A stretch of DNA of 39,939 nt, from positions 1-39,939 of the forward strand of contig JACPMZ010000011.1 in NCBI GenBank assembly GCA_016185705.1, given 5' to 3'. Position 1 is the first letter of the stretch; each line of letters opens with the position of its first letter. Origin of the DNA: Candidatus Woesearchaeota archaeon (GTDB lineage: Archaea > Nanobdellota > Nanobdellia > Woesearchaeales > UBA10216). This document shows positions 16,243-29,562 of this stretch, piece after piece. A program made the position numbers and the translations under genes. The notes under the pieces were generated by a model. It ran no database searches and was not told the DNA's origin. It saw only the letters and a program-made list of their open reading frames with translations.

Positions 16243-16587
16243 ATGGGGCTGAAGAAAGCGCAGGAGGAGCAGCAGCAGGCTTATGAGGCTGAGATCAGGC
16301 ATACTAAATTGCCGCGAGGCAGGCAGGTTTTTGGTGTTGTTGACCAGCGTGTTGGCGGCACCAGAATGAAAGTGCGCTGTTTGGATAATAAGCTGCGCCT
16401 GTGCAGGATTCCCGGCAGGTTTAAGCGAAGGCTGTGGGTGAGGGAAGGAGATACTGTCTTGGTTGAGCCGTGGGAGCTTGGCGGCGATGCGAAGGGCGAT
16501 GTTCTTTACAAGTACACCCGCGCCCAGTATCAGTGGCTTAAGATGAAGGGCTATCTTAAGGATGTTCGTGAGTTTGAGGAGTTTTGA
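16243..16587 (+). CDS. eif1A: Translation initiation factor 1A
   Basis: aIF1A binds the ribosomal A site during initiation. The 114-residue protein is an OB-fold of the expected kind: MKVRCLDNKLRLCRIPGRFK, then REGDTVLVEPWEL. A basic/Gln-rich N-terminal tail precedes it and a helical C-terminus (AQYQWLKMKGYLKDV) follows. TTTATATA at 16212-16219, 27 bases before ATG, indicates a leaderless mRNA. T tracts after the stop act as terminator. Confidence 0.95.
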   Translation: MGLKKAQEEQQQAYEAEIRHTKLPRGRQVFGVVDQRVGGTRMKVRCLDNKLRLCRIPGRFKRRLWVREGDTVLVEPWELGGDAKGDVLYKYTRAQYQWLKMKGYLKDVREFEEF

Positions 16588-16701: not shown

Positions 16702-16739
16702 TTTATATGTGCAGAGTTTCTGTATTGCTCTGAGGTGAT
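16702..16739 (+). promoter_or_regulatory. Promoter and strong SD of the CGTCGC micro-ORF
   Basis: TTTATAT at 16702-16708 is a TATA box; transcription should start near 16731. GAGGTGAT at 16732-16739 is a near-ideal Shine-Dalgarno match, five bases before ATG 16745. The pair supports real expression of the very short frame that follows. Confidence 0.6.
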
Positions 16740-16744
16740 TGAAA

Positions 16745-16798
16745 ATGTGCGGCACTTGCGGATGTACTCCTGCTGAAGGCGATGATTCCGGCGGCTAA
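16745..16798 (+). CDS. 17-residue Cys-rich microprotein (CxxCxC motif)
   Basis: The frame encodes MCGTCGCTPAEGDDSGG. Three Cys lie in the first seven residues, in the pattern CxxCxC. That pattern resembles the N-terminal CxxCGC nickel site of HypB proteins and other small metal-binding peptides. The tail is acidic and Gly-rich. Coding support comes from a TATA box at 16702-16708 and GAGGTGAT five bases before the ATG. No long gene overlaps it, so the signals have no other obvious purpose. It sits between aIF1A and a membrane protein. A role in metal binding or delivery is inference. Confidence 0.6.
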   Translation: MCGTCGCTPAEGDDSGG

Positions 16799-16874
16799 TC
16801 GTCTCCGGCAGCGGATGAATGATTACTACTTTAAAATAAAAAAATTTATATAGTTTTGCTTGTTTTGTGTTGTC

Positions 16875-17297
16875 ATGTCTGAGCGTCCATTTTTGGCTTT
16901 GCTTGTTGTCATCACTGCTTTTGGTGCTGTTTGGCTTGCATTGGTCAGGCCGATTGCTCTCACTGAAGTTGTTCTTGCCGGCTTGCTGGGCCTTCTTGGC
17001 GTTGCTGCGCTTGTTCATTTTAGAAGTGCCAGGTCCGGAGTTTTGATGCCGCTGTACTTTGTGGCTGCCTTGGTGTATGCGGTTTATGTTTATTTGAATA
17101 CCGCGCTTGGTTATATACTTGCGTCCATTGTAGTTCTGAGTGTTGTTGGGCTGATTTTGGGCTTTGGTTCCAGGGCTGTGAGCAGGGCTGCTGTTCCGAA
17201 AACTGCACAGGCTGGAAGGGTTGCCTCCATGCCATCGCCGAAAAGGGCTGTCAGGAAAAAATCTTCCGGGAAGAGCGCTGCCAAAAGGAAGAAATAG
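16875..17297 (+). CDS. Four-helix membrane protein with basic tail
   Basis: The 140-residue protein has about four hydrophobic segments between residues 5 and 100 (FLALLVVITAFGAVWLALV, EVVLAGLLGLLGVAALV and two more). It ends in a strongly basic tail KRAVRKKSSGKSAAKRKK that probably stays in the cytoplasm. I do not recognise a family. ATG 16875 is 27 bases after a TTTATATAG box, so it is likely leaderless; an upstream in-frame start lies before that position and is rejected. Confidence 0.65.
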   Translation: MSERPFLALLVVITAFGAVWLALVRPIALTEVVLAGLLGLLGVAALVHFRSARSGVLMPLYFVAALVYAVYVYLNTALGYILASIVVLSVVGLILGFGSRAVSRAAVPKTAQAGRVASMPSPKRAVRKKSSGKSAAKRKK

Positions 17298-18981: not shown

Positions 18982-20112
18982 CTATTTCCCAAATAATATT
19001 CTGAATATGCTTGCGCATTCATGCCCTTTTGCTTTCTTCAGGAATCCGCAGCTTAATTTTGTGCATTGGTTGTTCTCTGATGTTTCGTCCTGTCCGCATT
19101 CCGCGCATACATGGTTTACAGCTGCCTGGTGCTGTTCGCATTCAAGTTCTGCGCATGTTCCATTAAAGATGTATTCGTCATTTCCGCATGCCAGCTGCCG
19201 GCATTCGTGCTCTGCTGCTGCTTCGTTGTATGCGCAGTTCAGCGATGCGCATTTGTTGTCAGCGCACTCTTCGCTTTCTGCGCAGTCATTGTTCCCGCAG
19301 CATTCGTAATCTGCGCAGGCGTGGTTTGCCGTGTACTGGCACGCTCCGCAGCTTAACGGAATGCATAAGTTGTCCTCGCATGCCTCGTTGGGAGCGCATT
19401 CGCTGTTAGAAGCGCACGTTGGAAGGTCTGTGCATTCCACTGAGTCGTAAAAATTGTACTTCTGGTTGTCGCACTGCTGGTATTGAACTGTGAACCTTTC
19501 GATGTCCTTGGTTGTGTTCCACATCAGGGTGAAGCGGTTGCTTCCAACACGCTTTGCCCTGCTCATTGCAATCTGCCTGAACTCCGGGCTGAGTATTTGC
19601 GGGCCGTGCGTAAGCTCCTTGCCGTCTGATGTTTTGATTTCGTAGTCCAGAAGAAACGGCTTTTCAAACCTGAATTCGTTCTGCTTGTCATATCGCAGGC
19701 TGTATGCCGTGAACCTTCCGTAGAAGGTGTCATTGCGCTTGTAGCACGCATTTATTGAAATGTTTATCAGCTTGCAGCTGAAAACAAAGGCAGGGCAGTT
19801 GAGCGAGTAGCTGCTTTTCCCTACCCGTACGCTCTGTCTGGAAGCTTTCGGGGAAATGAACACTGCTTCCTCTGACCTGAATGTTTTCCGATTGTTTTCA
19901 TCTCTCCACTCCCCTTCAACTTCAGCCCAGTTTGTGCCAATCCTTGCATATACGCCTTCTTTTTCGTCAAGGTTTCTGATAACGAACTCTCCTGTGTCGC
20001 GGCAGCTGGTTTCCACAGCCGCTATTCCCAGCTGGGAGCCCGCGTCAGGCAGAAATGCCACCAGCGCGGTTATTGCAACGATAATAATCGCTGCGGCCTC
20101 TTTTTTTATCAT
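18982..20112 (-). CDS. Exported Cys-rich protein with EGF-like spacing
   Basis: The 376-residue protein has an N-terminal hydrophobic signal or anchor (AAAIIIVAITALVAFLPDAG). A beta-rich domain of ~200 residues follows. From residue ~228 to the end, Cys repeat in units such as CASNSECAPNEACEDNLC, CCGNNDCAESEECADNKC and CAYNEAAAEHEC, reminiscent of EGF-like or granulin-like disulfide modules. It should be extracellular and disulfide-bonded. A TATA box about 26 bases upstream of ATG 20112 suggests a leaderless mRNA. The family is unknown to me. Two other Cys-rich exported proteins and a CcdA/thioredoxin pair are nearby. Confidence 0.7.
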   Translation of the reverse strand: MIKKEAAAIIIVAITALVAFLPDAGSQLGIAAVETSCRDTGEFVIRNLDEKEGVYARIGTNWAEVEGEWRDENNRKTFRSEEAVFISPKASRQSVRVGKSSYSLNCPAFVFSCKLINISINACYKRNDTFYGRFTAYSLRYDKQNEFRFEKPFLLDYEIKTSDGKELTHGPQILSPEFRQIAMSRAKRVGSNRFTLMWNTTKDIERFTVQYQQCDNQKYNFYDSVECTDLPTCASNSECAPNEACEDNLCIPLSCGACQYTANHACADYECCGNNDCAESEECADNKCASLNCAYNEAAAEHECRQLACGNDEYIFNGTCAELECEQHQAAVNHVCAECGQDETSENNQCTKLSCGFLKKAKGHECASIFRILFGK

Positions 20113-20326: not shown

Positions 20327-22783
20327 ATGGTAAAGGATGTAAGCGAGTACGGCTTCGTAATAGTTGCTCTTGCAGCCACTTTGGTTACTGCTTTCGTTGT
20401 TCACGGCATTCTTGCCTCTGCTCAGGGCGATGACGTTGGTGTGCTTGAAGGCGCTGAGGAAATTCTGGTAGAGGAGCGTGCAGGCATTACGCCTGACAGC
20501 CCTTTGTATGTTTTTGACAAAATTGTTGATAATGTGCAGCTTGCTAGTTCACGCGGCGAGGATAAGGCCAGAAAGGCGTTGGAGATTAAGGAGGAGCGGC
20601 TGGCTGAGGCTTCTGTCATGGTTGATGGTTCTAAGTCTGGCAAAGCCGGGGAGGCGTTGCTGCTTGCTGCTGGCGCTGCAAAGATTGCGCAGGCAGAGAT
20701 TGCCCCTGACCTGGAGAATGAGGCTAATGAGAATGTCAGGCGTGCCGCCCGCTTATTGACTGATATTAAGGATAAGCTGCCCGGCGAGGGCTGGGAGGAT
20801 GTTGAAGCTTCCCTTAATGCGCAGCTTGATGAGGAGGAGAAGACCAGGATTGCTGTTATTGTTGCCAAATCCCGGCTCAGCTACTGCGATGCTCTGGCTA
20901 AGCAGGATTTTGCTCTGCTTAAAAGCGATGAGCGGTGCGACATTGGGAAAAGCCCTGAGTGGCTCCGTTCAAAGGTTGAGGGCCCAATGAGCGAGCGCGA
21001 GGAGAATGCCCGCCGCTTAATATTTGACGTCGTAAGTAGCTGCGTTGTTGACCCGAAGCAGTGCGACTGCAGCAAGATTCCTGTCGGAAAGCACGCTGCC
21101 AGCTGCGAGGTTAACAGGGCGCTCGCTATAAGGTGCGAGTATGAAGCAGATAATGATGCGTGCAGGCAGCTTGATGGCGCCGAAGACGAGTTTCTGGATA
21201 TTCTGGACGAAGGCCGCAAATCATCAATAAGGGAGCTGCTTCGCGAGAAAGAGGAGGAATTCTTTGACAGGTTTAAGCCGCCTGAGTGCGCTGAAGCTGA
21301 GACTTTTGAGGAATGCTTTGATATCATGAAGGGAATTTACGGGCTGCCTCCGTTCTGCGAGGGGCTTAGCGACGCTGAGTGCCAGGAGAAAATAAGAACA
21401 ATGGGTCCTGAGGAGATGGAAGCCCAGATGCCTCCTGAGTGCAGGGATGCAGGCGTTGCATCTCCGAAGGAGTGCGGCAGGCTTATGATGGACAAGTACG
21501 GCAAGCCGCCTGAGTGCGCTGATTTGGATGTTGATGAGTGCATTGATTTGATGATGAAGAACGGCCCCCAGCATGTCGGCGGCCGTGGCATGCCTCCTGA
21601 GTGCGTGGCAGCAGGCGTTGCCTCTCCGCGTGAATGCTTTGACATCATGACAGCCAAGTTTGGAGTTCCTCCTTTCTGCGAGGGCTTGAGCGATGATGAG
21701 TGCTTTGAGGAAGCTATGAAGCACGGCCCTTCCCAAGGTCCTGGTCCTGAGGGGCCGGGTGCTGAGGGTTTCAGCCCGCCACAATGCCGCGAGGCAGGAG
21801 TTTCCGGCAAGGAGTGTGCTGCCCGCATGCTTGAATTGTTTGGAAAACCTCCTGAGTGCGATGAGCTGAGCACAGAGGAATGCATTGAAAAGGTCATGCG
21901 TGCCCCTCCTGATGTTTCCCGGGCATGCATCGGCTTAAGCCCGCAGGAGTGCCGTGATAAAATTCAGAGCGAGTTTGGAGCTCCGGGCTGCGAGGGATTG
22001 GGGCATGAGGACTGCATTGATGAGCAGCAGCGCCGCGGCGTGCCTGGAGGATTGCCTGTAGAATGCGCTGGCCTCGGGCATGACGAATGTCAGCGCATTA
22101 TGATGGAAAGGTTTGGCCCGCCTGAATGCAAGGGCCTGTCCAGAGAACAATGTGAAGATGTTATGGCTGAGAAGCGCGGCAATGATATAAGAGGATTTGA
22201 TGTTGATTGTGAAGGCATTTCGCGCAGCGAGTGCGAGTCCAGGATGTTTTCCCGCTTCGCCCCGCCTGAATGCGAAGGCCTTCCTCCGGATGAATGCAGG
22301 AGAATTATGTCTGAATCCCGCGGCCCTTCAGGTGAGCCGGGCCGTGGCGGTTTCATTCCCCATGATGAAGAAATTCGGGGCGGCATGCCCGGTGTTCCTG
22401 AATGCGAGGGGCTTTCAAAGGAGGAATGCATGGAACTGATGAGGGATCGCTTTGCGCCTGTTGGCGGCATGCCTGATGAACAGCATGGTGCTGGACGCGA
22501 TTTCAATGGCGGCGTTCCTCCTGGCCGCGTTCCAGGAGATATTCGCATTCCTGAAGGTGCTCCCGGAGAGTTCCGTGACTACCCGCAGCGTGTTCCGGAG
22601 GACTTCCGTGACCCCGGCAGCTTTGTGCCTGAAGGCAGGGAGCAGCCTGAAGAATTCCATGACAGTTCTGGAGAGTTTGCTGAAGAGCCAGACAGCCACG
22701 GCGGCGAATTCGGGGATGCTGAAAAAGCTTTGGAGGACATAACAGGGGGCTTAATAGCTGTTATTGAGTGGCTTAAGAAATAG
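20327..22783 (+). CDS. Exported repeat protein: DUF5667-like head, 15 Cys repeats
   Basis: The 818-residue protein starts with a signal/anchor (GFVIVALAATLVTAFVVHGI). Residues ~45-130 resemble DUF5667 (AGITPDSPLYVFDKIVDNVQ, then helices with Lys/Glu/Ala). From residue ~317 to ~710 there are about fifteen units of the form PPxC-x-(G)-L/V-S-x-x-E-C followed by a helix with Met and FG, each with two Cys. Long and short units partly alternate. The remaining C-terminus is Gly/Pro/Glu-rich and ends in a short hydrophobic helix. It is probably a surface protein with one disulfide per unit. Function is unknown. ATG 20327 follows a CATTTAAATA box by about 32 bases. Confidence 0.75.
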   Translation: MVKDVSEYGFVIVALAATLVTAFVVHGILASAQGDDVGVLEGAEEILVEERAGITPDSPLYVFDKIVDNVQLASSRGEDKARKALEIKEERLAEASVMVDGSKSGKAGEALLLAAGAAKIAQAEIAPDLENEANENVRRAARLLTDIKDKLPGEGWEDVEASLNAQLDEEEKTRIAVIVAKSRLSYCDALAKQDFALLKSDERCDIGKSPEWLRSKVEGPMSEREENARRLIFDVVSSCVVDPKQCDCSKIPVGKHAASCEVNRALAIRCEYEADNDACRQLDGAEDEFLDILDEGRKSSIRELLREKEEEFFDRFKPPECAEAETFEECFDIMKGIYGLPPFCEGLSDAECQEKIRTMGPEEMEAQMPPECRDAGVASPKECGRLMMDKYGKPPECADLDVDECIDLMMKNGPQHVGGRGMPPECVAAGVASPRECFDIMTAKFGVPPFCEGLSDDECFEEAMKHGPSQGPGPEGPGAEGFSPPQCREAGVSGKECAARMLELFGKPPECDELSTEECIEKVMRAPPDVSRACIGLSPQECRDKIQSEFGAPGCEGLGHEDCIDEQQRRGVPGGLPVECAGLGHDECQRIMMERFGPPECKGLSREQCEDVMAEKRGNDIRGFDVDCEGISRSECESRMFSRFAPPECEGLPPDECRRIMSESRGPSGEPGRGGFIPHDEEIRGGMPGVPECEGLSKEECMELMRDRFAPVGGMPDEQHGAGRDFNGGVPPGRVPGDIRIPEGAPGEFRDYPQRVPEDFRDPGSFVPEGREQPEEFHDSSGEFAEEPDSHGGEFGDAEKALEDITGGLIAVIEWLKK
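21275..22460 (+). repeat. Coding tandem Cys repeats (15 units)
   Basis: This part of the 818-residue protein encodes fifteen degenerate units of roughly 22-35 residues, for example PPFCEGLSDAEC and PPFCEGLSDDEC. Two nearly identical unit pairs (AGVASPKEC/AGVASPREC followed by PPFCEGLSD) point to past duplication of a two-unit block. Unit boundaries are approximate. Confidence 0.7.
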
Positions 22784-25016: not shown

Positions 25017-25079
25017 AAAGGGTGAGTGGCTGTTTTATTAAAACAAAACTATTTAAACCACGGCATCCTTTGTGCTTTT

Positions 25080-25811
25080 ATGGCGCGGCAGTGGAGCATT
25101 TTTTTGAACAGCGTGTTTTTCGTGCTGGGTTTCAGCTTAGTTTTTTCCTTGGTCGGCGTGCTGCTGCAGAGTGTTTTGCTTCGCAGCTCTTTTGCGGTTC
25201 AGCAGTGGCTTGGCTATGCGGGCGGCGCTGTGATTATTGTGTTCGGCATTTATCTGCTTGGGCTGATTAAGATTCCTTTTTTGGAGCGGGAGCATAAGTT
25301 AAAAGTAAGCAGGCAGTTCAGATTCAGCTATATTACGTCGTTTGTTTTCGGCGCGGCTTTTGCTGTTGGCTGGACTCCCTGCGTTGGCGCTGTTCTTGGC
25401 GGGATTCTGACGCTGGCTGTTGTTCATCCTGCGTCTGCTTTTGGCCTGCTGCTTTCCTACTCTGTTGGTCTTGGAGTGCCTTTTCTTTTGGTTGGGGTCT
25501 TCACCCAGAGGGCCTCTGGACTTATCACGAAGTTTGGTCCTAAGCTGAAGTACGTCAATTACGTGTTCGGCGTTTTTCTGATTCTGCTTGGCATTCTTGT
25601 GTTCACCAATAATCTGAGCAGGGTTGCTTCCTTTTCTTTTTTGACAGACTGGCTGCTTGCCATTGATGCAGTTACAGGAGGTTCCAGCTCGCTTAATTAC
25701 GGCATTGCTTTTGTCGCAGGTCTTGGCTCGTTCCTCAGCCCGTGCGTCATGCCGCTTATTCCCGGATTTTTGACTTACCTTGCTTCAACGGCTATAAATG
25801 GCAAAGAATAA
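25080..25811 (+). CDS. ccdA: CcdA/DsbD-type thiol transporter, apparently permuted
   Basis: CcdA passes electrons across the membrane through two Cys. Here the protein begins at what is normally helix 2 (VFFVLGFSLVFSLVGVLL), followed by VIIVFGIYLLGLIKIPFLER, GWTPCVGAVLGGIL with one active Cys, YSVGLGVPFLLVGVF and the usual last helix. Only then, at residues ~205-235, comes GLGSFLSPCVMPLIPGFLTY, which is normally helix 1 with the other active Cys. ATG 25080 is 26-27 bases after a TATTTAAA box, and no PCV helix lies upstream. It overlaps the thioredoxin gene by 14 bases. 243 residues. Confidence 0.85.
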   Translation: MARQWSIFLNSVFFVLGFSLVFSLVGVLLQSVLLRSSFAVQQWLGYAGGAVIIVFGIYLLGLIKIPFLEREHKLKVSRQFRFSYITSFVFGAAFAVGWTPCVGAVLGGILTLAVVHPASAFGLLLSYSVGLGVPFLLVGVFTQRASGLITKFGPKLKYVNYVFGVFLILLGILVFTNNLSRVASFSFLTDWLLAIDAVTGGSSSLNYGIAFVAGLGSFLSPCVMPLIPGFLTYLASTAINGKE

Positions 25812-28724: not shown

Positions 28725-28818
28725 GGGAACAGGTTTTAATAACTTCTTTATAAATCTTGCCATAAAATTTAATAATAAAATAGGAATATTTTAATATAAG
28801 CTGTTTCACTTTCAGGGC
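28725..28818. promoter_or_regulatory. Divergent promoter between nikR and the ZIP transporter
   Basis: This 94-bp A/T-rich spacer holds a minus-strand TATA box (about 28746-28755) for nikR and a plus-strand TTTAATATA (about 28790-28798) for the transporter, both placed for leaderless mRNAs. No standard NikR GTATGA operator is seen. A NikR site, if present, must be of another type. Confidence 0.5.
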
Positions 28819-29562
28819 ATGAGCTTATGGCTTTACACGTTGGCAAGCGTTTCCTTAGTCAGCTTGATTTCTTTTATTGGCGTTCTGACGCTTAGCTTTA
28901 GGGACGAGCAAATAAGGAAGATTCTGCTTTACCTTGTCAGCTTTTCTGCTGGCGCTTTGTTCGGCGATGCTTTTATCCATTTGCTTCCTGAGATTGTTGA
29001 GGAAACCGGTTTTGGATTAAGCATATCTGTCTATCTGATGGCAGGCATCATAACGTTTTTTGTGCTGGAGAAGATTATTGACTGGCACCACTATCATGGC
29101 TCAGAACGCCACCATCTCCATCCTTTTGCCGTAACCAATCTTGTTGGCGACGGCTTTCACAACTTTATTGACGGCCTGATTATAGGCGCAGCTTATCTGG
29201 TAAGCATTCCGGTTGGCATCGCTACTACTCTTGCTGTTATTTTCCACGAGATTCCGCAGGAGATTGGCGACTTTGGAGTGCTGCTGCACGGCGGCTTTAC
29301 TAAGGCAAAGGCGCTCTTCTTCAATTTCATTACTGCCCTGATGGCTGTTGTCGGCGCAGTGATTGCTTTAACTATCGGCGCCTATGTTGAAGGCATTACA
29401 GCAATCCTTATTCCGTTTGCTGCTGGCGGCTTCATTTACGTTGCCGGCTCTGACCTCATTCCTGAGCTGCACAAAGTCCGCCGCATTCGCCAGTCTGCGA
29501 TGCAGCTTGTTGCAATCCTGCTGGGAATACTTGTGATGATGGCTTTGGTATTGCTGGAATAA
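28819..29562 (+). CDS. ZIP-family divalent metal transporter
   Basis: ZIP proteins bring Zn, Fe or related metals into the cytoplasm. The 247-residue protein has about eight helices. The binuclear metal site is visible in NLVGDGFHNFIDGLIIGAAY (helix 4) and VIFHEIPQEIGDFGVLLHGG (helix 5). A His-rich cytoplasmic loop DWHHYHGSERHHLHP lies between helices 3 and 4. It is divergent from a NikR-like regulator, which may control it. Metal specificity cannot be read from sequence alone. Confidence 0.9.
   Translation: MSLWLYTLASVSLVSLISFIGVLTLSFRDEQIRKILLYLVSFSAGALFGDAFIHLLPEIVEETGFGLSISVYLMAGIITFFVLEKIIDWHHYHGSERHHLHPFAVTNLVGDGFHNFIDGLIIGAAYLVSIPVGIATTLAVIFHEIPQEIGDFGVLLHGGFTKAKALFFNFITALMAVVGAVIALTIGAYVEGITAILIPFAAGGFIYVAGSDLIPELHKVRRIRQSAMQLVAILLGILVMMALVLLE

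Follow-up and report, generated by a model that had tools for sequence, protein, structure and literature searches.

A conserved 17-residue microprotein of Woesearchaeota with a putative metal site of the HypB N-terminal type

The closest described relative of the site discussed here is the N-terminal CXXCGC motif of HypB (E. coli; NCBIfam HypB_prefix_1/2), in which Cys2, Cys5 and Cys7 together with the N-terminal amine bind Ni with a sub-picomolar Kd (PMC7055735). Free HypB peptides of 7-10 residues (CTTCGCG, MCTTCGCGEG) bind Cu, with a Ka of about 1-2 x 10^6 M-1, and gave no Zn or Ni isotherm under the conditions of that study (PMC6848105). Our microprotein shares M-C-x-x-C-G-C at the extreme N-terminus, with a free amine beside Cys2, but it has no GTPase domain, ends after 11-27 residues and occurs in family genomes without HypB and hydrogenase. 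Metallothioneins and phytochelatins are likewise small thiolate ligands, rich in Cys and tied to metal exporters and metalloregulators; however, they carry many Cys rather than three, and phytochelatin, unlike the microprotein, is not a ribosomal product. Two 21-aa members of the family had no Pfam match, metallothionein included, such very short queries having little power. The C(P)XCG zinc-finger micro-proteins of Haloferax volcanii are also archaeal, small, often missed by annotation and built on metal Cys motifs, but these contain the C(P)XCG motif twice within up to 70 aa (PMC11241148), whereas a single CxxCxC with three Cys in 11-27 aa falls short of two motifs and four Cys and leaves little room for a fold. 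Finally, CruR (DUF2946) is a copper-responsive uORF with a Cys motif in copper operons, but it has about 145 aa, and neither its RAPP arrest motif nor its place at the head of a downstream operon was found for the microprotein (PMC9426467).

The window, by which we mean the whole analysed stretch of 39,939 nucleotides from a Candidatus Woesearchaeota archaeon (G000), contains the frame MCGTCGCTPAEGDDSGG on the plus strand at 16745..16798 (DNA ATGTGCGGCACTTGCGGATGTACTCCTGCTGAAGGCGATGATTCCGGCGGCTAA): an ATG, 16 further codons and TAA, hence 17 aa, with three Cys in one CxxCxC within the core MCGTCGC (16745-16765, plus strand). A Shine-Dalgarno sequence, GAGGTGAT (16732..16739, plus), stands five bases 5' of the ATG, and an in-frame TGA inside it (16736-16738) shuts the frame on its 5' side; the TATA-box-like TTTATA (16702..16707, plus) lies 43 nt 5' of the ATG, and several relatives have similar elements 40-58 nt from theirs. 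The original prediction had described the codon count, stop, TATA box and Shine-Dalgarno spacing of this frame correctly. The DNA pattern for MCxxCxC occurs once in the window against 0.07 occurrences expected. Upstream is the translation initiation factor aIF1A (16243..16587, plus; PF01176, E 1.4e-18) and downstream a hydrophobic protein of about 140 aa with a Lys-rich tail (16875..17297, plus), which has no Pfam match; both are syntenic in G002, a genome of the same genus, where the latter is about 50% identical. Downstream of the microprotein stop and ahead of the next ATG (16875), within a block conserved in G002, sits the TATA element TTTATATA (16845..16852, plus), a predicted promoter that splits the microprotein and the next gene into two transcription units. 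None of the metal or thiol genes of our neighbour set falls within 5 kb of the window microprotein, the nearest being CcdA-like (25026-25808) and ZIP-like (28795-29559) genes 8 and 12 kb downstream. The same stretch encodes a 376-aa protein (18985-20112), syntenic in G002, whose second half is rich in Cys, and an 818-aa, probably exported protein with many two-Cys repeat units of the pattern PPEC-x-GL ... EC (20327-22783).

Conservation was first searched with ATGTGYGGNNNNTGYGGNTGY alone, demanding no Shine-Dalgarno sequence, in 59 relatives and with reverse-pattern controls. MCGxCGC frames were found in nine genomes, at one place each, with no control matches, and all nine belong to the window's own family of 19 genomes. 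GAGGTG stands 12-13 nt 5' of the ATG in 9/9, and the stop follows after 13-21 codons; the same string precedes a permissible start in only 9 of 244 ORFs of at least 100 aa (4%) in sampled stretches of G000. The anticipated conservation of both Cys and Shine-Dalgarno sequence was thus borne out. In G002 the frame occupies the same locus, between aIF1A (85% identical in protein sequence) and the same membrane protein, with all Cys kept; in G001 there is no frame in the 258 nt after aIF1A, where the contig ends, and none elsewhere by pattern. The same-locus comparison in close relatives proposed beforehand gave the frame in the first of these and, within the short stretch available, no frame in the second.

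Between G000 and G002 the seven core codons show five third-position changes and none at positions 1-2, so that MCGTCGC has five synonymous and zero amino-acid differences, while 24 of 39 four-fold sites in aIF1A differ. If positions 1-2 drifted at the aIF1A four-fold rate, the chance of finding the twelve core positions outside the ATG fixed would be about 1e-5. The tails, TPAEGDDSGG and GKESDEGGQ, differ in sequence and are both acidic and glycine-rich. Such a pattern indicates purifying selection on M-C-x-x-C-G-C, and, as judged from sequence, the frame is a real gene of 17 residues belonging to a conserved family in Woesearchaeota. A CxxCxC microprotein that stands alone, behind a promoter of its own and a strong Shine-Dalgarno sequence, is in this respect supported by the window and by its relatives. 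In the literature searched we found no account of the family, and as far as tested the family has not been described before.

Its distribution is patchy (9/19 in the family, few outside), and the ten family genomes without the frame include some that are 95-97% complete. An order-wide search of 353 genomes for a Shine-Dalgarno sequence followed by MCxxCxC recovered MCSTCGCKKKK (G063), MCSSCGCSEAKPKGKKKK (G139), MCSSCGCRDSKDKSPSKAKPKKK (G140) and MCATCGCREKKKKKTKKKKTTKKKKKK (G352); G376 is also counted among relatives beyond the family, and MCGTCGCQTKKKKKKGK comes from one genome of the class. Forms of the type MC[SA]xCGC are found elsewhere in the order, in one relative in the class and in one member of the Omnitrophota. 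With the strict pattern applied to 84,980 named genomes, the matches listed were mostly HypB, with the motif fused to the GTPase; the others listed were Bacillaceae proteins of 40-45 aa, Woesearchaeota microproteins and one Omnitrophota bacterium (MCGSCGCRPKAKGKKKAKKSKKK, L064). The Bacillaceae proteins (MCGWCGCGG...), which we take to be YjcZ-like, share the MCGxCGC start and Shine-Dalgarno sequence, but their hydrophobic, transmembrane-like C-terminal half marks them as a different family. Matches in G132 and G034 (44 and 39 aa) were taken as chance for their odd composition. A match in Aenigmatarchaeota (L066) was left out, since the contig end cuts the frame and a 5' extension is in phase (MMCNCACDNAKKSGRCGKMCGTCGCRAK...); possibly it is part of a longer protein rich in Cys, and at L244, also Aenigmatarchaeota, the Cys-rich frame beginning with MMCNCACDNAKKSGRCGKMCGTCGCRAK and cut by the contig end is metallothionein-like. 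Other Omnitrophota matches are 36-aa nine-Cys proteins of a different family, conserved at L250, L251 and L252 as MCKVCGCTPCKCGKKIVNGKCEGCGKEFDKCTCKKK behind GGAGGTG. The strict pattern had no match in viral contigs, and viral cargo was rejected.

Copies at loci other than that of the window mostly have metal and thiol genes around them: CopA, ZIP, HMA, VIT1, Fur, ArsR, glutaredoxin, thioredoxin reductase and CcdA. In genus g10 the surrounding region contains ZIP, a YHS P-type ATPase, a PCYCGC protein, a DsbD-like protein, FUR, a thioredoxin-reductase-like protein and GDH, the exact position of the microprotein varying among species; in G012 FUR is 82 bp away, and 9 nt separate the microprotein from the thioredoxin-reductase-like gene on its upstream side. 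In f50 the microprotein of two genera lies between a MarR-like protein and an HMA protein, the latter about 400 nt downstream. In G014 the order is microprotein, Lgt and VIT1, and G352 has rubrerythrin nearby. Lgt (prolipoprotein diacylglyceryl transferase) stands directly 3' of a Cys microprotein at L154 and L213, in two different families. As background, 18 metal/thiol query proteins gave one match in 263,776 bases of other stretches of the single genome G000; the queries were drawn from microprotein loci, which makes the enrichment partly circular. Positives that are independent, resting on queries from other loci, are contig C7 of G000 (GDH), G242 (glutaredoxin, thioredoxin reductase) and G262 (GDH, Lgt), with G376 and G012 added by way of the 36% pair. 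The predicted gene context points to copper, zinc and thiol homeostasis.

The same genomes encode other tiny Cys peptides. Relaxing the family search to a Shine-Dalgarno sequence plus MCxxC gave 20 matches and no controls. A second type, MC[GT][TM]CAKHKK[PK]K (MCGTCAKHKKPK), has exactly 12 residues with two Cys and a His and occurs in seven genomes (G003, G008, G009, G011, G012, G014 and, in two copies, G017), with a run-on version in G013 and no controls in 353 genomes; in genus g10 a CcdA gene adjoins it. Its loci L190, L191, L194, L196, L197, L203, L207 and L208 have a GAGGTG Shine-Dalgarno sequence and a TTTAAA box at -40 to -46. Contig C7 of G000 (L224:9066-12701) carries, in order, GDH, an ArsR-like regulator, MAKDKTCGCGSGKKEKDCCGSG, MCGTCGDGGGA and glutaredoxin, the two tiny Cys-rich frames having 22 and 11 aa, and a CopA-type ATPase (YHS, HMA) on the opposite strand; ArsR, glutaredoxin and CopA were named here from sequence, without a Pfam scan. 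G242 (L212:1463-1534) has the tandem frames MGDGDCC* and MCGGCC*, of 7 and 6 codons and each behind GGAGGTG, with glutaredoxin and thioredoxin reductase near them, and in G262 MCGCCKKKKDEG is followed by Lgt and GDH. We suggest, tentatively, that some Woesearchaeota may base their buffering of thiols and soft metals on peptides that are encoded by genes and have 6-27 residues (MCGTCGC..., MCGTCAKHKKPK, MCGTCGDGGGA, MCGCCKKKKDEG, MGDGDCC/MCGGCC), a ribosomal counterpart of glutathione and phytochelatin that would work with the glutaredoxin, thioredoxin reductase, CopA and ArsR encoded nearby.

For the window itself, the best explanation, to which we give a probability of roughly 0.55, is that a real gene encodes a 17-residue microprotein, which would serve as a miniature metallothionein or metallochaperone; this product would probably be a very small buffer for soft metals of the copper type or for thiols, built on a HypB N-terminal-type metal site. 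By analogy with HypB, the peptide would repeat the geometry of that site and leave the tail free and variable in charge, three thiolates, perhaps with the N-terminal amine, holding one soft metal ion. In this context the bound ion would most likely be Cu(I) or Zn(II), with Ni(II) possible; this preference is tentative, since the HypB peptides gave no Zn or Ni isotherm (PMC6848105). With CopA/ZIP transporters and glutaredoxin/thioredoxin reductase as neighbours, a strongly translated peptide could buffer the metal, hand it over or work as a dithiol. Counting against this explanation are the position of the window copy, whose neighbours are aIF1A and a membrane protein and not metal genes, the patchy distribution within the family and the partly circular neighbour enrichment.

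With HypB above cut-off and [NiFe]-hydrogenase absent from G000 and the family carriers, a Cu(I)/Zn buffer or chaperone is favoured, and a thiol-redox peptide becomes its main rival. The peptide would then be a ribosomally made CxxC dithiol and not a metal ligand, a small redox carrier or substrate of glutaredoxin or thioredoxin reductase standing in for glutathione. We consider this unlikely, although several features suit it: the closely spaced thioredoxin-reductase-like gene of G012 has counterparts near the microprotein in G376 and G242, glutaredoxin adjoins the paralogues in G000 C7 and G242, CcdA adjoins the 12-aa peptides in g10, and, as the two-Cys and His version (MCGTCAKHKKPK) is kept, three Cys are not always needed. 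However, the third Cys, identical to that of HypB, and the CopA/ZIP/HMA/ArsR context point to metal, and it further counts against a redox role that we know of no gene-encoded low-molecular-weight thiol of such a kind.

A regulatory uORF or leader peptide, in which the downstream gene is controlled as the Cys codons are translated, or by a nascent chain that binds metal as in CruR, would also account for a short, Cys-rich frame behind a strong Shine-Dalgarno sequence, with HMA or CcdA genes 60-400 nt away at some loci. We reject it as improbable, since the downstream gene differs among genomes instead of being conserved, in the window the next gene has a separate TATA box after the microprotein stop, there is no Rfam match, the fold energy is ordinary (z = -1.09), and amino acids are kept beyond the Cys codons alone.

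A little less probable again is a detached HypB N-terminus bringing nickel to [NiFe]-hydrogenase. The likeness itself is sound: MCGTCGC is the same core as in dozens of HypB N-termini and matches the N-terminal CXXCGC of HypB (TIGR00073), though the G3E GTPase domain is missing from a frame that stops after 17 codons, and HypB_prefix_2 (NCBIfam NF053668) weakly matched two family members at 19.8 and 16.5 bits, below its curated cut-off of 35, with E = 7.8e-4 for a 21-aa member. The original prediction was right about this resemblance, but the nickel role that it tied to HypB biology fares poorly. No HypB above cut-off was found in G000 or in any family genome carrying the frame, and a PF00374 search found no [NiFe]-hydrogenase in G000, G002 or any family carrier, which makes nickel delivery to hydrogenase unlikely. 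The family's hydrogenases are in G005, G007 and G009, all without an MCGxCGC frame. NiFe-hydrogenase-family proteins do accompany the frame in the order-level carriers G139, G140 and G352; for the window's family, where HypB and PF00374 do not track the microprotein, this role is largely refuted. A chance open frame behind a GAGGTG string is very improbable, for although 17 codons are few and the 323 kb sampled would be expected to contain 1.7 GAGGTG-led short frames with at least two Cys, conservation, synteny, synonymous-only substitution and the absence of control matches refute it.

The microprotein is too short for annotation programs and is unseen by standard gene callers; Prodigal by default passes over genes shorter than 90 nt. 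In the GMSC catalogue the minimum was 30 nt (PMC11364881), so that some members may be present, unlabelled, in smORF catalogues. If translated, the microprotein would rank with the smallest stand-alone proteins that are conserved, being shorter than common gene callers accept by default, and a free peptide would contain the whole of a HypB-type metal site. In that case the microprotein would also show how archaea with small genomes handle copper-type metals and their thiol redox state.
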